From the NCBI GenBank assembly GCA_005223185.1, contig NJBN01000011.1:1-64000 (forward strand): a stretch of DNA of 64,000 nt, in the 5' to 3' direction. Of the stretch, positions 6,249 through 30,901 are shown piece after piece (the stretch's first letter is position 1; each line of letters opens with the position of its first letter). The DNA is from a candidate division LCP-89 bacterium B3_LCP. Its GTDB lineage: Bacteria > Electryoneota > B3-LCP. A program made the position numbers and the translations under genes. Below the pieces are notes generated by a model, which saw nothing but the letters and a program-made list of their open reading frames with translations, searched no databases and was not told the origin of the DNA.

Positions 6249-7187
6249 TCATCCGTACGGATGATAGGCTTCGGCATCAATGACAGCAACACGGATTTCG
6301 TTCGTATTGTTGGGGCGAGCGGCTTCAAAGTATATATACAATTTGTCTCTGAACCGAATCCAGTCTGAATATCGCCAGGTGTCATAGTCTCCCGGTGTAG
6401 TGCTCCTGAAAAGAGGTTCACGCGGCGTCAGATCGATAAACTTCTCCAGGTCCGGAGAATACGCCAGACCGGTGGCGATATTGTAGTTGGGATCTCGCCA
6501 GTTCACGTTCGACCCCTCATAGATAAATAGGTAGCCCACGGGCAGCGGCACTAAACTCGCCGGACGAGTGTAGAAGTTATGCCATCCGGAGTTTTCCATA
6601 ACCGGAGTTGCCTTGACCGATTGCCATGATTCTCCATCGTCACTGGTGAAATGTCGAATGCGCTCGACCGTGTCGAGGGCAATGACGAACATATGCCATC
6701 GGAGGTCATCCCATAGAAGCACAGGATCCTTGTATCCGGTAACGTTCACAAAGCCGTCCTTGGGATGCTCTGCAACTAAGATGGTCCTTGCCGTTCCGGC
6801 GTCGAAGTCTTCAGGGTGATCAACGTCCTGGAATTTCAGAATAGCCCATCCCCTCTCGAGCTCGGTGCATCCGTAGAGCTTGTATTTGCCTGTACCCGGG
6901 TCTCTCCGTAACGAGGGGCGCTCGAAACCCGAAACGCCTGCGTCCTCGCGCCGGATACTGTGTATTGCGGTGAAGTTACGACCATCCATGCTCTTCAGAA
7001 TTCTAATTTCGTACCCGCGCTTACCCTGCGGTGATTTCCCCTCGCGCATCCGCGCAGCCAGATAAAATGTTCCGTCATCAGACACGGTGACAGATGGCGC
7101 TCCAGCCCACCATTCTGGTGTATTCTCATCGGGTTCTAAAACCACCTCATAGTCCGATAACGCTACGGCGATATCCTGCAATCTCAC
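6249..7187 (-). CDS. GH43/GH32/GH130-like five-bladed beta-propeller hydrolase, cytoplasmic
   Basis: A 312-residue protein without signal peptide. It has the repeating bladed pattern of furanosidase-type propellers: an early WWAGAPSVTVSDDGTFYLAA strand pair, GYKDPVLLWDDLRWHMFV (about 150-167) with an aspartate in the usual transition-state position, and a closing YSDWIRFRDKLYIYFEAA blade. Family-level specificity is not clear. It may hydrolyse an oligosaccharide imported by the symporter, or be a non-canonical propeller. The start ATG follows AAGGA at a good distance. It stands 103 bases before the GH20 gene in the same direction. The closest well-known group is uncertain among GH43, GH32 and GH130. 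Confidence 0.65.
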   Translation of the reverse strand: MRLQDIAVALSDYEVVLEPDENTPEWWAGAPSVTVSDDGTFYLAARMREGKSPQGKRGYEIRILKSMDGRNFTAIHSIRREDAGVSGFERPSLRRDPGTGKYKLYGCTELERGWAILKFQDVDHPEDFDAGTARTILVAEHPKDGFVNVTGYKDPVLLWDDLRWHMFVIALDTVERIRHFTSDDGESWQSVKATPVMENSGWHNFYTRPASLVPLPVGYLFIYEGSNVNWRDPNYNIATGLAYSPDLEKFIDLTPREPLFRSTTPGDYDTWRYSDWIRFRDKLYIYFEAARPNNTNEIRVAVIDAEAYHPYG

Positions 7188-9216: not shown

Positions 9217-10590
9217 TCAGTCCGCTGCTGTGTGTGCCGTTTCGAATGAGCCCTGCAAACCTTTTATGGAACGATTCTCCACGGCGTACACCACCCCAAA
9301 CTTGGCGGCAAGTTTCTCGGCGATGTCGCGATGCTCTGTGATCACATTATGCTGTTCCCTTGGATCCGTGTCGAGGTCGTAGAGTTCATCCGGCTCGTCA
9401 TCGGGTCGTAAAATCAAACTCCACCGCTCATTGCGAATGCAACGGTCGCCGCCGTCATGAAATCCGGAAATCGTTGCCTCACGGAGTCTCTCTGTTTCGC
9501 CGCGGACAAGCGGCAAGAGAGAATGTCCCTGCATGTCCAATGTGCAGTTCCCCATTCCTGCCGCCTCCAGAAGCGTGGGAAGTACGTCAGGAAATTGAGC
9601 CAGCTTCTGAATCATCTGTCCACCAGCTTCCTGGTCAGGCAGCTTGAACGCGAACGGTACCTTCAATAGTTCTGAGTACATTCTGTCCGGCCCTTTTAGA
9701 AATTTCCCGTGGTCGGCGAGCGGATGGCCGTGATCGGAGAGGAAAAACACCAATGCCCCATCGTAACGGCCTACATCTTTCAGAACCTTCAAGAAGTCTC
9801 CGACCATGGCATCTACATAAGCAACCTCGCCTGCGTACAATGAACGGATACGCTTAATCTCCTCAGCAGAAAAGTACTGCGAAGCGTCGCCGCCAGGCGG
9901 CAATATGTAATCCTTTCCTCGATATTCAGGATCTCCGTAAACATCGAACTCTGCCGGTGGCGTCCAAGGTTCATGAGGATCAAAGGTCTCTACCCAGAGA
10001 AATAGCGGCTTGCTGCAAGCGCTATTTCGCTGAATCCAATCGGCCGCGCGCGCAAAGGTTTTGTAACAGGGGAAATCCTTCGTCTCGTTGGCCTTATCCA
10101 AGTTCTGACACACAATCTGCAACAAGTTGCGCCATCTTTCCGGAAACGAGTCCTTCCAGTAATCCTGGACACGACGACGCTCGGGTTGCGCAGTGCAACA
10201 ACCGTCAAATTCCTGTCCTCTAATCCAATGCCACTCATCGTATCCCCGGTGGAAATTCTGGTCGGGCTTAAAATAGTGATAGACATCCGTGATCAACGCC
10301 GTCACATAGCCTTCACGACGAAGAATCTCTGAACATGTTACGTCCGTTGCAGCTAAAGGCTGCCATGAACGTCCTGGCAAGGTACCGTTTCCAGTCACCC
10401 ACTCCGTTCGAACCGGGATAGTAGGCAGACCCTCGGGATACATGTTGTGGAATGCGATTGAGTCTCGCATCAGGGCATCTATGTTTGGCGTCTTCAACGG
10501 ACATGCTTCCCCAGCGTAGTAACTGACATGATCCTGTCGCAGCGAGTCCGAGACGATGACGATGATGTCAGGCTTCGGTTTTTGAATCAT
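9217..10590 (-). CDS. Sulfatase-fold (alkaline phosphatase superfamily) hydrolase lacking the usual Cys/Ser
   Basis: The start at 10590 is chosen because AGGGAG lies 7 bases upstream; this removes 16 residues of a longer frame. The fold is that of type I sulfatases: VSDSLRQDH (13-21) with metal-binding Asp, and a SDHGHPLADHGKFLKGPDR block with the metal-binding Asp-His pair. The formylglycine motif C/S-x-P-x-R is present only as T57-I-P-V-R61. Known sulfatases need Cys or Ser there for conversion to formylglycine, whereas threonine is used as nucleophile by alkaline-phosphatase-superfamily phosphodiesterases such as nucleotide pyrophosphatases. The enzyme may therefore act on a phospho-sugar or phosphonate substrate instead of a sulfate ester. 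No signal peptide is seen, so it is probably cytoplasmic. Confidence 0.85.
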   Translation of the reverse strand: MIQKPKPDIIVIVSDSLRQDHVSYYAGEACPLKTPNIDALMRDSIAFHNMYPEGLPTIPVRTEWVTGNGTLPGRSWQPLAATDVTCSEILRREGYVTALITDVYHYFKPDQNFHRGYDEWHWIRGQEFDGCCTAQPERRRVQDYWKDSFPERWRNLLQIVCQNLDKANETKDFPCYKTFARAADWIQRNSACSKPLFLWVETFDPHEPWTPPAEFDVYGDPEYRGKDYILPPGGDASQYFSAEEIKRIRSLYAGEVAYVDAMVGDFLKVLKDVGRYDGALVFFLSDHGHPLADHGKFLKGPDRMYSELLKVPFAFKLPDQEAGGQMIQKLAQFPDVLPTLLEAAGMGNCTLDMQGHSLLPLVRGETERLREATISGFHDGGDRCIRNERWSLILRPDDEPDELYDLDTDPREQHNVITEHRDIAEKLAAKFGVVYAVENRSIKGLQGSFETAHTAAD

Positions 10591-15145: not shown

Positions 15146-16114
15146 TTAATCCGGATAATTTCCTTCTTTACGCCAAACATCCAGAATTAATTCATAACGT
15201 TTAAGCTGCATTCCGGTATAAACACAATTACTGGTGGAAAAAATGTACCCGCCACCGGGCATTCCACGCTTTAAGGCGTATCGGGCGGATTCAATCACTT
15301 CTTCATCGGTTCCGGTATCCATTAACCCGCAGTTCACATTCCCGATTAAACAGACCTTATCTCCAACAAGCTCTTTTACTTCAGCTATATCCACACCACC
15401 CTGAGGATCCAGACTGTGAATCGCATGTGGAGATGCCGATACAAGTCGGTCAAGAATGGGCATGATATTGCCATCGGAGTGTTTAATAACATAAAAACCC
15501 TGTTCCCGGTACCCTGAAACCAATTGTATAAGGTAAGGCAATACAAATTCATCAAACATTTCCGGCGAGAGAAAAGTGCCGGTATTAAAACAATAATCGC
15601 TACACAGGGCAAAACAATCCAGAGCACCATGTTTTTTAAAAGTTACCGCCTTTTCCAATGCTCCGTCTATCATTTCCTGTGCCTCGTCTTTCAGCTGCTG
15701 CGGTTTCTCGGTTATTTTCGTGACAAATTCCATCATCTCGTTACCTTCGGGCAAGCCCCAGGTACGGTCGCCGTGGATCATCAGTAAATATTCATCCTCT
15801 GAAATTTCCCGGATTTTATCCATAATTTTCAGGCTGTCATCATTTACCCTTTCCTGCCAGATATCAGCGCATTGAAAAAAAATAGCCGAATGTTCGTAAT
15901 GACGGGCGATTTGAACGTAGATTTCCGCAGTATCTACCCGGTGCAGTTCTTTTTCTGTCTCTGACATTTGTCCCCACTGTTCAAAGTGGCGGTGCGATGG
16001 ATGGATTTTTCCGAAAGCTTCCATGGTAAGAAAAAATACCAATTCGAAATGTGGTACTCTTCCGGGAGGTTGCTTGCCCTCCAGAGCCATAATAAATTTT
16101 TCTTTTGGTGTCAT
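15146..16114 (-). CDS. Uroporphyrinogen-decarboxylase-fold methyltransferase (MtaA/CmuA-like) inside the glycan operon
   Basis: A 322-residue URO-D-superfamily protein. It opens with MTPKEKFIMALEGKQPPGRV, the usual start of this group, and carries CALCSDYCFNTG, a VIKHSDGNIMPIL strand with the expected His, and CLIGNVNCGLM near the end. True heme-pathway decarboxylases differ in the first helix and substrate loop. The closest described relatives are corrinoid-dependent methyltransferases. Two further URO-D proteins and a corrinoid protein are encoded at 28048-30901, so this one may work with them, for example in removing methyl groups. It is unusual to find it between a GH29 and a DUF4838 gene. 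No signal peptide is present, so it is cytoplasmic. Confidence 0.8.
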   Translation of the reverse strand: MTPKEKFIMALEGKQPPGRVPHFELVFFLTMEAFGKIHPSHRHFEQWGQMSETEKELHRVDTAEIYVQIARHYEHSAIFFQCADIWQERVNDDSLKIMDKIREISEDEYLLMIHGDRTWGLPEGNEMMEFVTKITEKPQQLKDEAQEMIDGALEKAVTFKKHGALDCFALCSDYCFNTGTFLSPEMFDEFVLPYLIQLVSGYREQGFYVIKHSDGNIMPILDRLVSASPHAIHSLDPQGGVDIAEVKELVGDKVCLIGNVNCGLMDTGTDEEVIESARYALKRGMPGGGYIFSTSNCVYTGMQLKRYELILDVWRKEGNYPD

Positions 16115-25104: not shown

Positions 25105-25944
25105 TCACTGGTTGGAAATGACAACTGCAAATTCAGATGAATCCGGATTGAGAGGATTGCCAGCAACATCTCCATAGATCTCACTGACCATCAAGCCTGC
25201 AGCCTCAACCTCAGTTGTAAGCGACTCCCTGGTGAAGTATTGCAGCCAGTTGCAGACGGTTCGCGTCTGCTCTTCTTCAACGATAGTGTATTTATCGAGA
25301 ATTACCTTCTCATCTTCGTACTTAAACGTATTCAGGAATCCATAATACTTCTCACGTGACCAGAATCCACCGAGCAGATCATATTCGTATTTTGCCGCCT
25401 CTTCTCTTTGGTTGTAGCCGTTTAAGGAATAGACATCCAGCAGGATAGAGCCACCGGGTTTTAGCAGAGAGTTGAACTTGCGTAGCATTAGTTTTCTCTG
25501 TTCCGGGCTAAGAACGCAGAAATCACACATGATCATGATTATCAGGTCAAACCTCTTAGAGGACTCAAACTCAAGATAATTCTGGGGATGGTAACTGATG
25601 TTCAGCCTTTTCTGCGCCGCTACCGTCTCGGCATATTGAATAGATCTTTTTGAGAAATCTATCCCTGTAACAATTGCACCCCTTTGGGCAAGGCGTGTGG
25701 TATATAGACCAGGGCCACAACCGAAATCAGCGATATGTGTATCACCTTTTGCACTGAAATGCGAAACAATCCATTCAACCGATTTATCGATGAAATCTAT
25801 TCTCCTGGATGCGACATCAATAGACTCATTCAGGTGACATTCAAGCATTCGCTCGGAGATATACTCATCTGTCCAAAGCCTATCCGCGAAGTAGAATTGA
25901 AAGGGCAGAGGGCGGGAGTTTATTTTCTCCAGTTCATTGAACAT
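25105..25944 (-). CDS. Class I SAM-dependent methyltransferase
   Basis: A 279-residue cytosolic protein with a Rossmann-type methyltransferase domain. Motif I is IADFGCGPG (71-79), followed by VTGIDFSKRSIQYAE and a LIIMIMCDFCVLSP stretch at the motif IV position. It is most like small-molecule methyltransferases, but the substrate cannot be told. It lies 18 bases after the GH130 gene and before a CBM9-like lipoprotein, which is an odd place. With three URO-D-type methyltransferases and a corrinoid protein nearby, a link to methylated sugars or cofactors is possible, though unproven. Confidence 0.85.
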   Translation of the reverse strand: MFNELEKINSRPLPFQFYFADRLWTDEYISERMLECHLNESIDVASRRIDFIDKSVEWIVSHFSAKGDTHIADFGCGPGLYTTRLAQRGAIVTGIDFSKRSIQYAETVAAQKRLNISYHPQNYLEFESSKRFDLIIMIMCDFCVLSPEQRKLMLRKFNSLLKPGGSILLDVYSLNGYNQREEAAKYEYDLLGGFWSREKYYGFLNTFKYEDEKVILDKYTIVEEEQTRTVCNWLQYFTRESLTTEVEAAGLMVSEIYGDVAGNPLNPDSSEFAVVISNQ

Positions 25945-28047: not shown

Positions 28048-29100
28048 TTAATCAGTGCCATCAGCATCAATCCCATATCCCTGGCTTAACCATTCCCTCG
28101 TTACTGCCAAAGCAGTGTCGGGCTTAGCCCCTGGACCGAATTCAAACTGAGCGATTAAGCCGCCAGATGGATCGTACAGATGGCGGATAACCTGGTGTAC
28201 GGCCTTACGTCCAACTTCCGGATCGGGGGATGGTAGGACATGCTGCCGGTCGATCTCACCCCAGAATGTGATCCTACCTTTAAACCGCCTGCCAAGCTCG
28301 GCAATGTCCATGCAGAAAAGCTGTGAATTAATAGCATCTACTCCGATCTCAATTAGATCTTCGAAAATATCGGTGATGTAGCCATCCGAATGCATGAAGA
28401 CGAACTTCCCCTCAGCATGCGCCAGGTCGCAGTATTCACGGTAGAGCGGTTTAAACTGTTCCCGCCAGATATCCGGGTGGATCAACAACTGATTCTGCGA
28501 TCCCCAGTCGTCCATGAAGAGCAGGGCATCCACTTCAGACTTTGCCCAGAATTCCATCTCCTTCAGGTAAAAATCGTGAATTGCGCCGATCAGGTCTTTG
28601 AATCCCTCATCCGGTATCATTACGTCCATAAGCGCGGATTCAGTGCCGCGTAAGAACTGATATCTTTCCCACGGGCGGGGACAGCAGTTGGACATGACGA
28701 ATTTATCCGTGCTGTCGTAGAATCGCTTTATTTTATCATAAGCTGCCGAAGTTGATTCTGGCAACTGCTCGTATGGTGGTGTGACCGATTTCCAGTCCGA
28801 TATATCTTTGATAATCGGGTCGCGTACCTCGCCGATAATACCATCCTGAATGTTGCGAAAAACACAGCCCCACTCATCCGTGAACTGCCCTGCCTTATAG
28901 GGATCACCCTTAACGCGTTTTGATGGAGGATAAAAATAGTCCGAGGTGGCAAAGTCCGATGAGAACTCTTTCCGCAATAATCTGACTGTCTCAGGTTCGT
29001 GAATTTCTGCCCAGGGGAGCAACCAGAGATCGCGTGGTATTCGCTCCGGACAGTCGAACTTCAAACAACGGGTTACGATCTCTCGAGAAGATTGAGGCAT
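28048..29100 (-). CDS. URO-D-fold corrinoid-type methyltransferase (third gene of the corrinoid operon)
   Basis: A 350-residue URO-D-superfamily protein starting with PQSSREIVTRCLKFDCPERI. It has a TDEWGCVFRNI strand, a FMDDWGSQNQLLIHPDIW segment and the metal-site-like KFVFMHSDGYI with His. It ends with a GRITFWGEIDRQHVLPSP and a GGLIAQFEFGPG stretch. These features fit methyl-transferring relatives and not the heme enzyme. It lies 14 bases after the corrinoid protein gene, which is the normal partner arrangement. Substrate unknown. Confidence 0.82.
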   Translation of the reverse strand: MPQSSREIVTRCLKFDCPERIPRDLWLLPWAEIHEPETVRLLRKEFSSDFATSDYFYPPSKRVKGDPYKAGQFTDEWGCVFRNIQDGIIGEVRDPIIKDISDWKSVTPPYEQLPESTSAAYDKIKRFYDSTDKFVMSNCCPRPWERYQFLRGTESALMDVMIPDEGFKDLIGAIHDFYLKEMEFWAKSEVDALLFMDDWGSQNQLLIHPDIWREQFKPLYREYCDLAHAEGKFVFMHSDGYITDIFEDLIEIGVDAINSQLFCMDIAELGRRFKGRITFWGEIDRQHVLPSPDPEVGRKAVHQVIRHLYDPSGGLIAQFEFGPGAKPDTALAVTREWLSQGYGIDADGTD

Positions 29101-29114
29101 ATTTATGTCAACAC

Positions 29115-29780
29115 CTAAGTCTGCGCTGCCAGGTGCTTGGCGAAACTGTGTGGATCGGGAAAGAAGCCGTCTGCACCGATTTTATCGCTGAATTCCTGCG
29201 TCAGTGGAGCGCCTCCGACGTAGATTTGAGTTTGGGGCGATTGCTGTTTAATCTGATTGACCGATTGCTCCATGGTGCCCATCGTTGTGGTGAGCAGTGC
29301 GCTCATACCAATGATGCTATCTGGATTATCGCGCAATGTTTCTGAGAACCTTTCAACGGTGACGTCCACACCTAAGTCAAGCACTTTCCAGCCATCACCT
29401 TCCAAAACCATGCGCACAACGTTTTTGCCGATTTCGTGCAGGTCACCAGCTACTGTACCCAGAATTAGTGTACCGCGATGTTGGATGTCACCCGAATCGA
29501 AATGCGGCTGCAGATGTTCCATTGCCGCGTTCATGGCTCTTGCGGACATCAGCAGGTCAGGGATGAAAGCCTCCCCCTTACTGAAACGTTCACCAATGCG
29601 GTTCATACCTGGCATCAAACCTTGTTTCAGAATCTGATCAGCAGAGATGCCACTGTCGATTGCTTCTTTGGTCAGTTCAGATGCACCGTTTTCACCTTTC
29701 AGAACCGGAGGATAGGGCGAATTCAGGTCAGCTTTGCCTTTTTCGATGCAGAATGCGATCTGAGTCAGCAAATTGTTCAT
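29115..29780 (-). CDS. Corrinoid (B12-binding) methyltransferase shuttle protein
   Basis: A 221-residue protein in the MtaC/MtbC/MttC family. Residues about 30-100 are the helical cap domain (LMPGMNRIGERFSKGEAFIP). Residues 101-215 form the cobalamin-binding Rossmann domain with the DxHxxG motif D113-L-H115-E-I-G118, where His115 is the lower cobalt ligand, and later GMSALLTTTMG and VGGAPL. Such proteins carry a methyl group on cobalt between two URO-D-type methyltransferases, and here both neighbours are of that type. No reductive activase (RamA-like) gene is seen in the window, so it must come from elsewhere. Confidence 0.94.
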   Translation of the reverse strand: MNNLLTQIAFCIEKGKADLNSPYPPVLKGENGASELTKEAIDSGISADQILKQGLMPGMNRIGERFSKGEAFIPDLLMSARAMNAAMEHLQPHFDSGDIQHRGTLILGTVAGDLHEIGKNVVRMVLEGDGWKVLDLGVDVTVERFSETLRDNPDSIIGMSALLTTTMGTMEQSVNQIKQQSPQTQIYVGGAPLTQEFSDKIGADGFFPDPHSFAKHLAAQT

Positions 29781-29788
29781 CTCTTTTC

Positions 29789-30901
29789 CTATTCAAACTG
29801 TCTGTTATATTTATTTACTATCTCCCCGACAATCCTGATCCGTTCGATGTCGCCTGTAGATGAAATCTCATCGGAAATGCCCAGCACCAGCTTCGGGGCA
29901 AAGAGTTCTATGAGCAGTTCGGTGCATTCGATCAACGCCTCAACCGGGTACGTATCATCGAAATACACAGCGGGGATGCCATCCAGCAGAAACATATCAT
30001 CACCTAAAGCCTCCCTGATCTCCATCAGCGTTACGTCGCCCTGCGGTTCAGGTGTGATTGCCTCGATACCATTCAGACCTGTTTCTCGGACGAAGGGCAG
30101 TAGCGCCTTTACGTCACCATCCCAGTGAGAACAGACGAATTTCCCCGCTGAATGAAGCTTTTCGCAGCGTCTCTGGCAGGCTGGCAGGTGATATTTCACA
30201 AACAGATCGGGAGATAGCGTGGAAGCGTGGATATTTTCACCGAAATTGATGATATCTACTGGTGAACTGTTGATCACATCGATTAGCCGGTCGTGGTTTT
30301 CTTCCAGCGCCTGGAAGAACGATTCAACCTGTTCGGGCATTTCATACATGGCGTAAACACCTTTCTCTACACCCATTTTTTCAATGTAGAGGCACTGCAC
30401 ATTCATGCGAGGCATGAACATAGTCGGTGCTCCCAGATGCCCGATTTTATTTTGCAGATTGTCAAACCGATCCTGATCCCATTGCCAGGTTGCATTCTCC
30501 TCGCGCCAGGTCGCGACTTTCAGTTCATCAGAAGATTCGACCTCCCATTTGAGTACAATCTGGTGAGGGCTGTTTATTGTTTTACGCGTTATAACCGTCT
30601 GATTGCCAACAGCGGTGTGGATCGTCGTTTCAGTATCTGTTTCATTTAACGGTTTGTCTGTTACATGGACCGAGGAATGCTCGATCCGCTTGAAGCAGCT
30701 ATTAAATTCATATAATCTCGCTGAGCATCCCAATTGATCGTAAACCTGCCAGATGTCCATACCAGTGTACGGCGGTGGCAGCCCTTCACCTGAAAACATC
30801 TTGTCATCATACCAGCACCCAATGCGCGGCTGCCAGATTATCTTCCCGTTCGATCTACTGAAGACGACATCGTGATGGAGTTGGTAAAAAGAGAGATTCA
30901 T
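29789..30901 (-). CDS. URO-D-fold corrinoid-type methyltransferase (first gene of the corrinoid operon)
   Basis: A 370-residue URO-D relative with an unusual N-terminal half containing HHDVVFSRSNGKIIWQPRIG and a pair of beta-rich stretches. The conserved C-terminal barrel has FGENIHASTLSPDLFVKYHL, SHWDGDVKALLPF with His in the metal position, and LDGIPAVYFDDTYP. It is distinct in sequence from the URO-D protein at 28048, so one may demethylate the substrate and the other pass the methyl group on. The gene ends 8 bases before the corrinoid protein gene. A predicted promoter lies about 50-80 bases upstream of its start. Confidence 0.8.
   Translation of the reverse strand: MNLSFYQLHHDVVFSRSNGKIIWQPRIGCWYDDKMFSGEGLPPPYTGMDIWQVYDQLGCSARLYEFNSCFKRIEHSSVHVTDKPLNETDTETTIHTAVGNQTVITRKTINSPHQIVLKWEVESSDELKVATWREENATWQWDQDRFDNLQNKIGHLGAPTMFMPRMNVQCLYIEKMGVEKGVYAMYEMPEQVESFFQALEENHDRLIDVINSSPVDIINFGENIHASTLSPDLFVKYHLPACQRRCEKLHSAGKFVCSHWDGDVKALLPFVRETGLNGIEAITPEPQGDVTLMEIREALGDDMFLLDGIPAVYFDDTYPVEALIECTELLIELFAPKLVLGISDEISSTGDIERIRIVGEIVNKYNRQFE

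Follow-up and report, generated by a model that had tools for sequence, protein, structure and literature searches.

Does an enzyme with a sulfatase fold still work when threonine stands where formylglycine is made from cysteine or serine, and if it does, which bond does it cleave? The question is raised by a gene in a 64,000-nucleotide stretch of DNA (contig NJBN01000011.1, positions 1 to 64,000; here the window) from the candidate division LCP-89 bacterium B3_LCP.

Threonine at the sulfatase nucleophile position

The gene occupies positions 9217–10590 of the minus strand and encodes a 457-residue protein whose sulfatase fold was assigned from matches to the Pfam families PF00884 and SGSH_C and from comparison of an AlphaFold2 model with 7oz8. 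On the minus strand, positions 10408–10422 read ACT ATC CCG GTT CGA, which gives T57-I-P-V-R61 in place of C/S-x-P/A-x-R, and the threonine aligned with the cysteine or serine of 22 other rows. The motif is numbered as residues 57–61 from the ATG at 10590; an alternative TTG start 48 bases upstream would give a protein of 473 residues. These codons confirm the initial annotation, which had placed T57-I-P-V-R61 at the sulfatase nucleophile position, although its interval (10405–10425) took in one extra codon at either end of the motif.

The closest homologue (locus L001, 72% identical), from a metagenome-assembled genome labelled candidate division TA06, also carries threonine, encoded by ACC rather than the ACT of the window gene. 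Comparison of the two genes gave a pS of 0.80, which is saturated, and a pN of 0.18, with the same residue at 327 of 457 codons, indicating strong purifying selection. The different codon and the selection acting on this pair make a sequencing error at Thr57 unlikely and, together with the other threonine homologues, rule out both such an error and a private mutation at codon 57.

PF00884 covered residues 7–346 of the protein and model positions 1–301 of 301 (E = 3.4e-33), and SGSH_C matched the C-terminal part, with most of its model covered. All NCBIfam matches fell far below their cut-offs; the best was the PRK13759 arylsulfatase model (157.9 versus 481 bits), and the PehA model NF045661 scored 109.5 bits against a cut-off of 900. 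The NPP family PF01663 scored 29.9 bits against a cut-off of 23, its best stretch spanning only residues 253–289. Among relatives with solved structures, all 60 chains listed of 80 carry sulfatase or phosphonate monoester hydrolase (PMH) names (best profile E = 2.2e-55), and among these 60 we recognised no structure of the clade described below.

We built an AlphaFold2 model on an alignment of six rows (pTM 0.81, mean pLDDT 71.7), and it aligned with the S1 sulfatase 7oz8 over 396 residues (VIA-align Z 35.0, rmsd 2.8) and with the PMH 2w8s over 384 (Z 32.5, rmsd 3.4). S1 sulfatases, such as BT1918 (S1_46, 7oz8) and EfAS (9koq), were the best structural matches, sharing both the fold and the C-terminal domain, and no LtaS or NPP entry was among the 50 structural matches listed. 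As predicted by this model, the S1-like fold is clear. Residues 55–60 had pLDDT values below 50, so the geometry of the active site is not readable from it.

A clade of threonine and cysteine enzymes

We searched 386 genomes and found matches at an E-value of 1e-36 or better in 16, including the window's own; extending the sample by phylum yielded three genomes each time. In one homologue search, the five closest, 43–72% identical, all have threonine. We aligned 73 homologues, taking only matches with at least 280 aligned columns, and built a first tree of 71 rows from which the nucleophile and G-K columns had been removed. The two rows dropped were L024_10, which has threonine and is a truncated copy of the protein at L049, and L037_2888, a 381-residue protein with a cysteine motif. 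Seven of the 37 match places had no locus; one of them, L118, has threonine without the RGQE motif described below and stands outside the tree, as do the threonine members L113 and L149, which were found later, and the other six were not included.

The tree resolved four groups. Group A (29 rows, including the window protein) has threonine with Arg61; group B (12 rows, support 98; L015, L047, L048, L074–L080, L087 and L090) has cysteine, mostly as S-[LM]-P-C-M-P-A-R-R; group C (20 rows, support 97) has threonine without the arginine; and group D (10 rows, support 90) consists of canonical cysteine or serine enzymes with G-K-x-H. Groups A and B together formed one 41-row clade with support 100. 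Group A was defined by threonine plus arginine and is therefore all threonine by definition; the independent result is that this clade holds 29 threonine rows, 12 cysteine rows and no serine. The initial annotation had treated the threonine as a peculiarity of a single protein; it is instead common to 29 of 41 clade rows, so that the conserved threonine clade for which that annotation had proposed to look does exist. Because threonine is common to scattered related enzymes, the clade's threonine members probably work without formylglycine modification.

A split with support 97, in a tree without LtaS or NPP rows, joined the A+B clade with the canonical cysteine or serine sulfatases, apart from group C. 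The threonine rows fell on one side of a branch with support of 40 in the first tree; that branch was absent from a second tree and occurred in 44% of its bootstraps. Group A may be one clade beside B, or the cysteine enzymes of group B may have arisen inside the threonine enzymes, by a return to formylglycine. The window's family has five further genomes, none with a match at 1e-36, and the scattered distribution of the clade fits horizontal transfer or loss.

By eye, the window protein has no signal peptide. Judged in the same way, with start codons chosen by script, 4 of the 29 threonine rows have a twin-arginine leader and 25 have no clear signal, and most clade rows, threonine and cysteine alike, open directly with the fold's first strand. 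The absence that had been noted as unusual is thus real but usual within the clade, and so not informative.

Threonine in PF00884 proteins is already in print: PMC5066984 reports it in 30 of 59 seed sequences of this family, so its occurrence there as such is known. Our literature search, which was limited in subscription journals, found nothing on this clade.

Active-site residues of the clade

We counted active-site residues over the 29 threonine rows (A), 12 cysteine sister rows (B) and 10 canonical rows (D), with all coordinates taken on the minus strand from the 10590 start. The predicted metal ligand D15 (10546–10548) was present in every row of all three groups, as were R61, H206 and D286. 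The second part of the metal site and LysB lie in D286-H287-G...K299 (9694–9735), of which D286, H287 and K299 are kept in 29 of 29 threonine rows; H287 occurred in 12 of 12 B and 8 of 10 D rows, and K299 (LysB) in 12 of 12 and 9 of 10. HisA (H105) was kept in 28 of 29 A, 11 of 12 B and 10 of 10 D rows. It lies in D102-V-Y-H105 (10276–10287), where aspartate replaces the LysA of G-K-x-H: position 102 was aspartate in 29 of 29 A and 12 of 12 B rows, and lysine in 10 of 10 D rows. The names LysA and HisA follow PMC5488252, which also places tyrosine at the LysA position in PMHs. The rest of the metal-binding pattern, which the initial annotation had judged intact, is therefore kept at D15, D286, H287, R61, H105, H206 and K299 and departs from it at Asp102, a change that this annotation had overlooked, as it had the clade motif, the lack of recognised maturation machinery and the glycan cluster described below.

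We also found a motif typical of the clade, RG[QH]E-x-D, which in the window protein is R124-G-Q-E-F-D129 (10204–10221). R124, G125 and D129 were invariant in A and B, E127 was present in 28 of 29 A and 12 of 12 B rows, and Q126 in 27 of 29 A and 9 of 12 B rows, the remaining three B rows having histidine. D129, R124 and G125 also occurred in 9, 4 and 4 of the 10 D rows, respectively, so it is the whole motif rather than any single residue that marks the clade. The window protein carries the full set of its threonine clade: Thr57, R61, D102, H105, RG[QH]E-x-D, HisB, DHG and K299. Judged from these alignments, the A+B enzymes form a coherent set whose cysteine and threonine members have a single charge reversal (lysine to aspartate) in common, and the change between cysteine and threonine is a step separate from that reversal.

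Set against known systems, the window protein shares with S1 sulfatases the metal ligands D15, D286 and H287 together with R61, HisA, HisB and LysB, and differs in its threonine, in aspartate for LysA, in RG[QH]E-x-D and in the absence of a recognised maturase from its genome. The PMH and phosphodiesterase group (RlPMH 2vqr, BcPMH 2w8s and PehA) likewise has an S1-like fold without LysA; according to PMC5488252, however, PMHs have formylglycine made from cysteine and tyrosine at the LysA position, in contrast to Thr57 and Asp102. The cysteine sister enzymes share D102, RG[QH]E-x-D and, in 11 of 12 rows, HisA, and differ in a nucleophile that is presumably converted to formylglycine. Because neither its nucleophile motif nor its LysA position follows the pattern, we do not place the window protein among formylglycine sulfatases; we class it as an S1-fold hydrolase with a probably unmodified threonine nucleophile.

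The loss of both the canonical nucleophile and LysA could also point to a pseudoenzyme, which would bind its ligand and leave it uncut. This is quite improbable, given that D15, R61, H206, D286, H287 and K299 are each present in all 29 threonine rows and H105 in 28, and that purifying selection is strong.

Formylglycine machinery

The window's genome (G000) had 12 PF00884 matches, and all eight above 100 bits have threonine; the four weaker matches (20–33 bits, two of them under the cut-off) have no confident assignment. Apart from the window protein, the strong matches are seven proteins of a T-[KLPF]-P-[SG] type on contigs C9, C12, C17 and C18, six of which sit as pairs on C12, C17 and C18. 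These share the threonine at the nucleophile position and the DHG metal motif with the window protein, and differ in lacking Arg at position 61 and in belonging to a separate tree group (support 97).

The same genome encodes four proteins with a formylglycine-generating enzyme (FGE) domain, none of which has the C-x4-C pair present in a control FGE on L083, where the FGE gene adjoins a cysteine-type 'alkaline phosphatase family' gene. We take this cysteine pair to be catalytic. No radical-SAM (anaerobic) maturase in G000 passed the cut-off, the best match scoring 64.4 bits against 349.45. Among 30 FGE-domain loci of other genomes, drawn from a longer list of matches, the cysteine pair was found in one (L127, genome G286), and 8 had no readable stretch.

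We surveyed the maturase in the 15 of the 16 matching genomes that have a threonine member; the sixteenth, G059, has a cysteine member only. Twelve of the 15 had a maturase above the cut-off, the exceptions being G000, G220 and G347. G220 (best match 233 bits) contains cysteine sulfatases. G347 (best match 33.7 bits) had no FGE match, and its four PF00884 proteins comprise two threonine enzymes of the clade and two that by eye lack C/S-x-P/A-x-R, one of these being cut off. Two of 15 genomes thus combine a threonine enzyme with neither recognised maturation machinery nor a recognised cysteine or serine sulfatase, and most have the maturase alongside. The assemblies of G000 and G347 are incomplete (95.83% and 89%, respectively), so the missing machinery is a hint and not proof.

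The proline of the formylglycine motif was glutamine in 5 of 29 threonine rows and was kept in 12 of 12 cysteine sister rows, as expected if the motif in the threonine enzymes is not read by a maturase. This replacement argues against an unrecognised enzyme that would oxidise Thr57 to the ketone counterpart of formylglycine, a reading to which the retention of R61 and of the T-G parts of the formylglycine motif would lend itself. Such oxidation is extremely improbable: no maturase was recognised in G000 or G347, and PMC5066984 states that threonine would yield a ketone and that formylglycine from threonine has never been shown, which bears out the initial annotation on this point. The authors of that paper also hold that proteins of the T-x-N-x-E type cannot count as functional sulfatases until experiments support it.

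Genomic context

The gene lies within a co-directional cluster of 14 glycan-catabolic genes on the minus strand (3851–26931), delimited from the ORF table and domain matches. From low to high coordinate the cluster runs GH20, an unassigned gene, GH29, the threonine enzyme, GH2, DUF4838, URO-D, GH29, GH38 (assigned by eye from its translation), a Na+/solute symporter, GH99, CBM9, a methyltransferase and GH130; in transcription order, from 26931 down to 3851, the threonine enzyme comes eleventh. Intergenic gaps in the ORF table are 13–133 bases, with two overlaps, and we infer that the cluster forms one operon. The gene set would suit an N-glycan-like substrate containing mannose, fucose and HexNAc. 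The threonine-enzyme gene has a G+C content of 0.524, compared with 0.383 and 0.387 for its immediate neighbours; other cluster genes have values similar to its own.

One cluster ORF, of 312 residues (6249–7187), had no Pfam match at 1e-4 and by eye resembles a beta-propeller glycosidase. Two URO-D-family genes flank a gene with a B12-binding domain at 28048–30901, a third URO-D gene lies within the cluster (15146–16114), and the methyltransferase gene is at 25105–25944. Together, these genes may allow O-methylated sugars to be demethylated in a cobalamin-dependent way. At L094, a URO-D gene adjoins the threonine enzyme.

At other loci, group B genes lay beside sugar ABC transporter genes on five of five alphaproteobacterial plasmids when wide flanks were examined, and a haloarchaeal group B gene (L074) adjoins a dipeptide-type ABC transporter. 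L092 holds two threonine enzymes together with a canonical cysteine sulfatase and an ABC transporter whose binding protein is of the SBP_bac_1 type. No sugar transporter was found within the flanks of a second haloarchaeal group B gene (L079) or of the Martelella group A gene (L073), whose product has a twin-arginine leader. Import followed by removal of a decoration in the cytosol fits the transporter-linked loci, with no such link seen at L079 or L073. The 72% identical relative at L001 sits among unrelated genes, and no neighbour family recurred in more than 5 of 20 loci (96 proteins, from script-called ORFs of 150–999 residues within three of the clade gene), so context beyond the window is a weak guide to substrate. 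On the Sinorhizobium meliloti plasmid accessoryC (L077), the genes cysD and cysN and one for a sulfotransferase lie a few kilobases from a cysteine sister gene, maybe by chance.

Proposed mechanism and substrate

We favour the reading that the window protein is a cytosolic hydrolase, probably with a single metal, that uses Thr57 as nucleophile on a putative phosphoester, and we give this whole chain a probability of about 0.5. Taken alone, its first part, an active enzyme with an unmodified threonine nucleophile, is quite likely. The protein would be an alkaline phosphatase superfamily hydrolase on the S1 sulfatase and PMH scaffold in which the hydroxyl of Thr57 replaces formylglycine. D15, D286 and H287 would hold a divalent metal that polarises Thr57 for attack on the ester, a conserved histidine or lysine would protonate the leaving sugar, and water would then cleave the threonine ester. 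The target bond, to which we attach less weight, may be a phosphodiester, or another phosphoester, carried by an imported oligosaccharide.

A phosphoester target is suggested by the superfamily threonine enzymes NPP3 and LtaS, which act on phosphoesters. NPP3 has a threonine nucleophile and two zinc ions (PMC6052110) and LtaS a catalytic threonine with Mn bound there (PMC4192460), in agreement with the initial annotation, which had cited threonine as the nucleophile in phosphodiesterases of the alkaline phosphatase superfamily. The window protein shares the threonine nucleophile with LtaS, EptA and NPP, its position being assigned by alignment with sulfatases, and differs from them in weak sequence similarity and, from NPP3, in its probable single metal. 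The lysine-to-aspartate change also points to a phosphoester, since it takes away a positive charge on which sulfatases draw close to their substrate; it is no sign of phosphate on its own, because it occurs in the cysteine (presumably formylglycine) sister group as well. Three findings count against the phosphoester chain: the maturase present in most threonine-member genomes, the retention of LysB, which 9 of 10 canonical rows also have, and the split that joins the clade with canonical sulfatases apart from group C.

Variants of formylglycine enzymes bear directly on this question. As described in PMC5488252, replacing formylglycine by serine in five sulfatases and four PMHs cost about tenfold in the mean, whether the ester was a phosphate, a phosphonate or a sulfate; single effects spread between a slight gain and a loss of 1,000–10,000-fold. 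The C61S variant of EfAS keeps 20–35% of its activity, which the authors of PMC12421950 credit to oxidation of the serine. Because serine variants turn over sulfate and phosphate esters alike, threonine is not proof of a phosphate substrate; with a simple rule that threonine means phosphate thus weakened, an unmodified threonine nucleophile is likely and a phosphodiester is the leading but unsecured target.

The residual activity of serine variants on sulfate esters (PMC5488252) favours a true sulfatase without formylglycine, in which Thr57 would attack sulfate and water would hydrolyse the sulfo-threonine ester, as may occur in those variants. The S1 fold, the cysteine sister group and the glycan cluster of the window are consistent with this, as is L092, where the canonical sulfatase beside the threonine enzyme could suggest a sulfated substrate. 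Our literature search, however, found no characterised threonine sulfatase, LysA is aspartate, and the loss of activity would bring no apparent benefit unless the genome lacks a maturase; we consider a sulfatase of this kind somewhat unlikely.

Thr57 could instead pass a phospho-group, for example phosphoglycerol or phosphoethanolamine, on to an acceptor sugar in the manner of LtaS and EptA. EptA, too, uses a threonine nucleophile. Both enzymes are membrane-anchored, unlike the window protein, in which the first strand of the fold starts at residue 9 and the 8 residues before it contain no membrane segment; moreover, the lipid donors of LtaS and EptA lie outside the cytosol. The use of threonine by LtaS (PMC4192460) and weak matches to the EptA, LtaS and MCR-12 models (19.3, 17.3 and 23.1 bits) favour such a transferase, but these scores are far below the cut-offs of 660, 970 and 1200, and the gene sits among degradative genes. 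We therefore regard a transferase as improbable.

Returning to the phosphoester hydrolase, a more specific version would make the threonine enzymes maturase-independent hydrolases of phosphodiester decorations on mannose/HexNAc glycans, arisen by a nucleophile swap inside the RG[QH]E-x-D clade. The decoration would perhaps be zwitterionic (phosphocholine or phosphoethanolamine), with Asp102 aiding by holding the cationic group. In this detail the proposal is improbable. The sugar phosphodiesterase of PMC10704324 was considered as a relative and rejected, since that paper assigns it to the EEP superfamily, which has a different fold.

Implications and further members

The Martelella threonine member (L073) is annotated 'sulfatase', and the Pfam model that matches threonine members bears a sulfatase name. 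Should the threonine clade be made up of phosphoesterases, these labels are in error for the group, as are counts of sulfatases drawn from environmental genomes. If its members are working sulfatases, efficient cleavage of sulfate esters is possible without formylglycine, which would be a surprise. In either case, the occurrence of cysteine and threonine inside one clade is a natural experiment on the purpose of formylglycine.

Members can be locally numerous: L093 (G083:C46) carries four threonine-type genes, L118 among them, inside about 18 kb of one contig. A protein scan for viral relatives found none, and an alignment scan found one contig, IMGVR_UViG_3300037047_000330 (L149:1-1455), which opens with a gene for a threonine-type enzyme (P-T-I-P-H-R and I-R-G-A-E-V-D). 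By eye, the ORFs that follow resemble a prohead protease and a major capsid protein, suggesting a possible phage-borne member.
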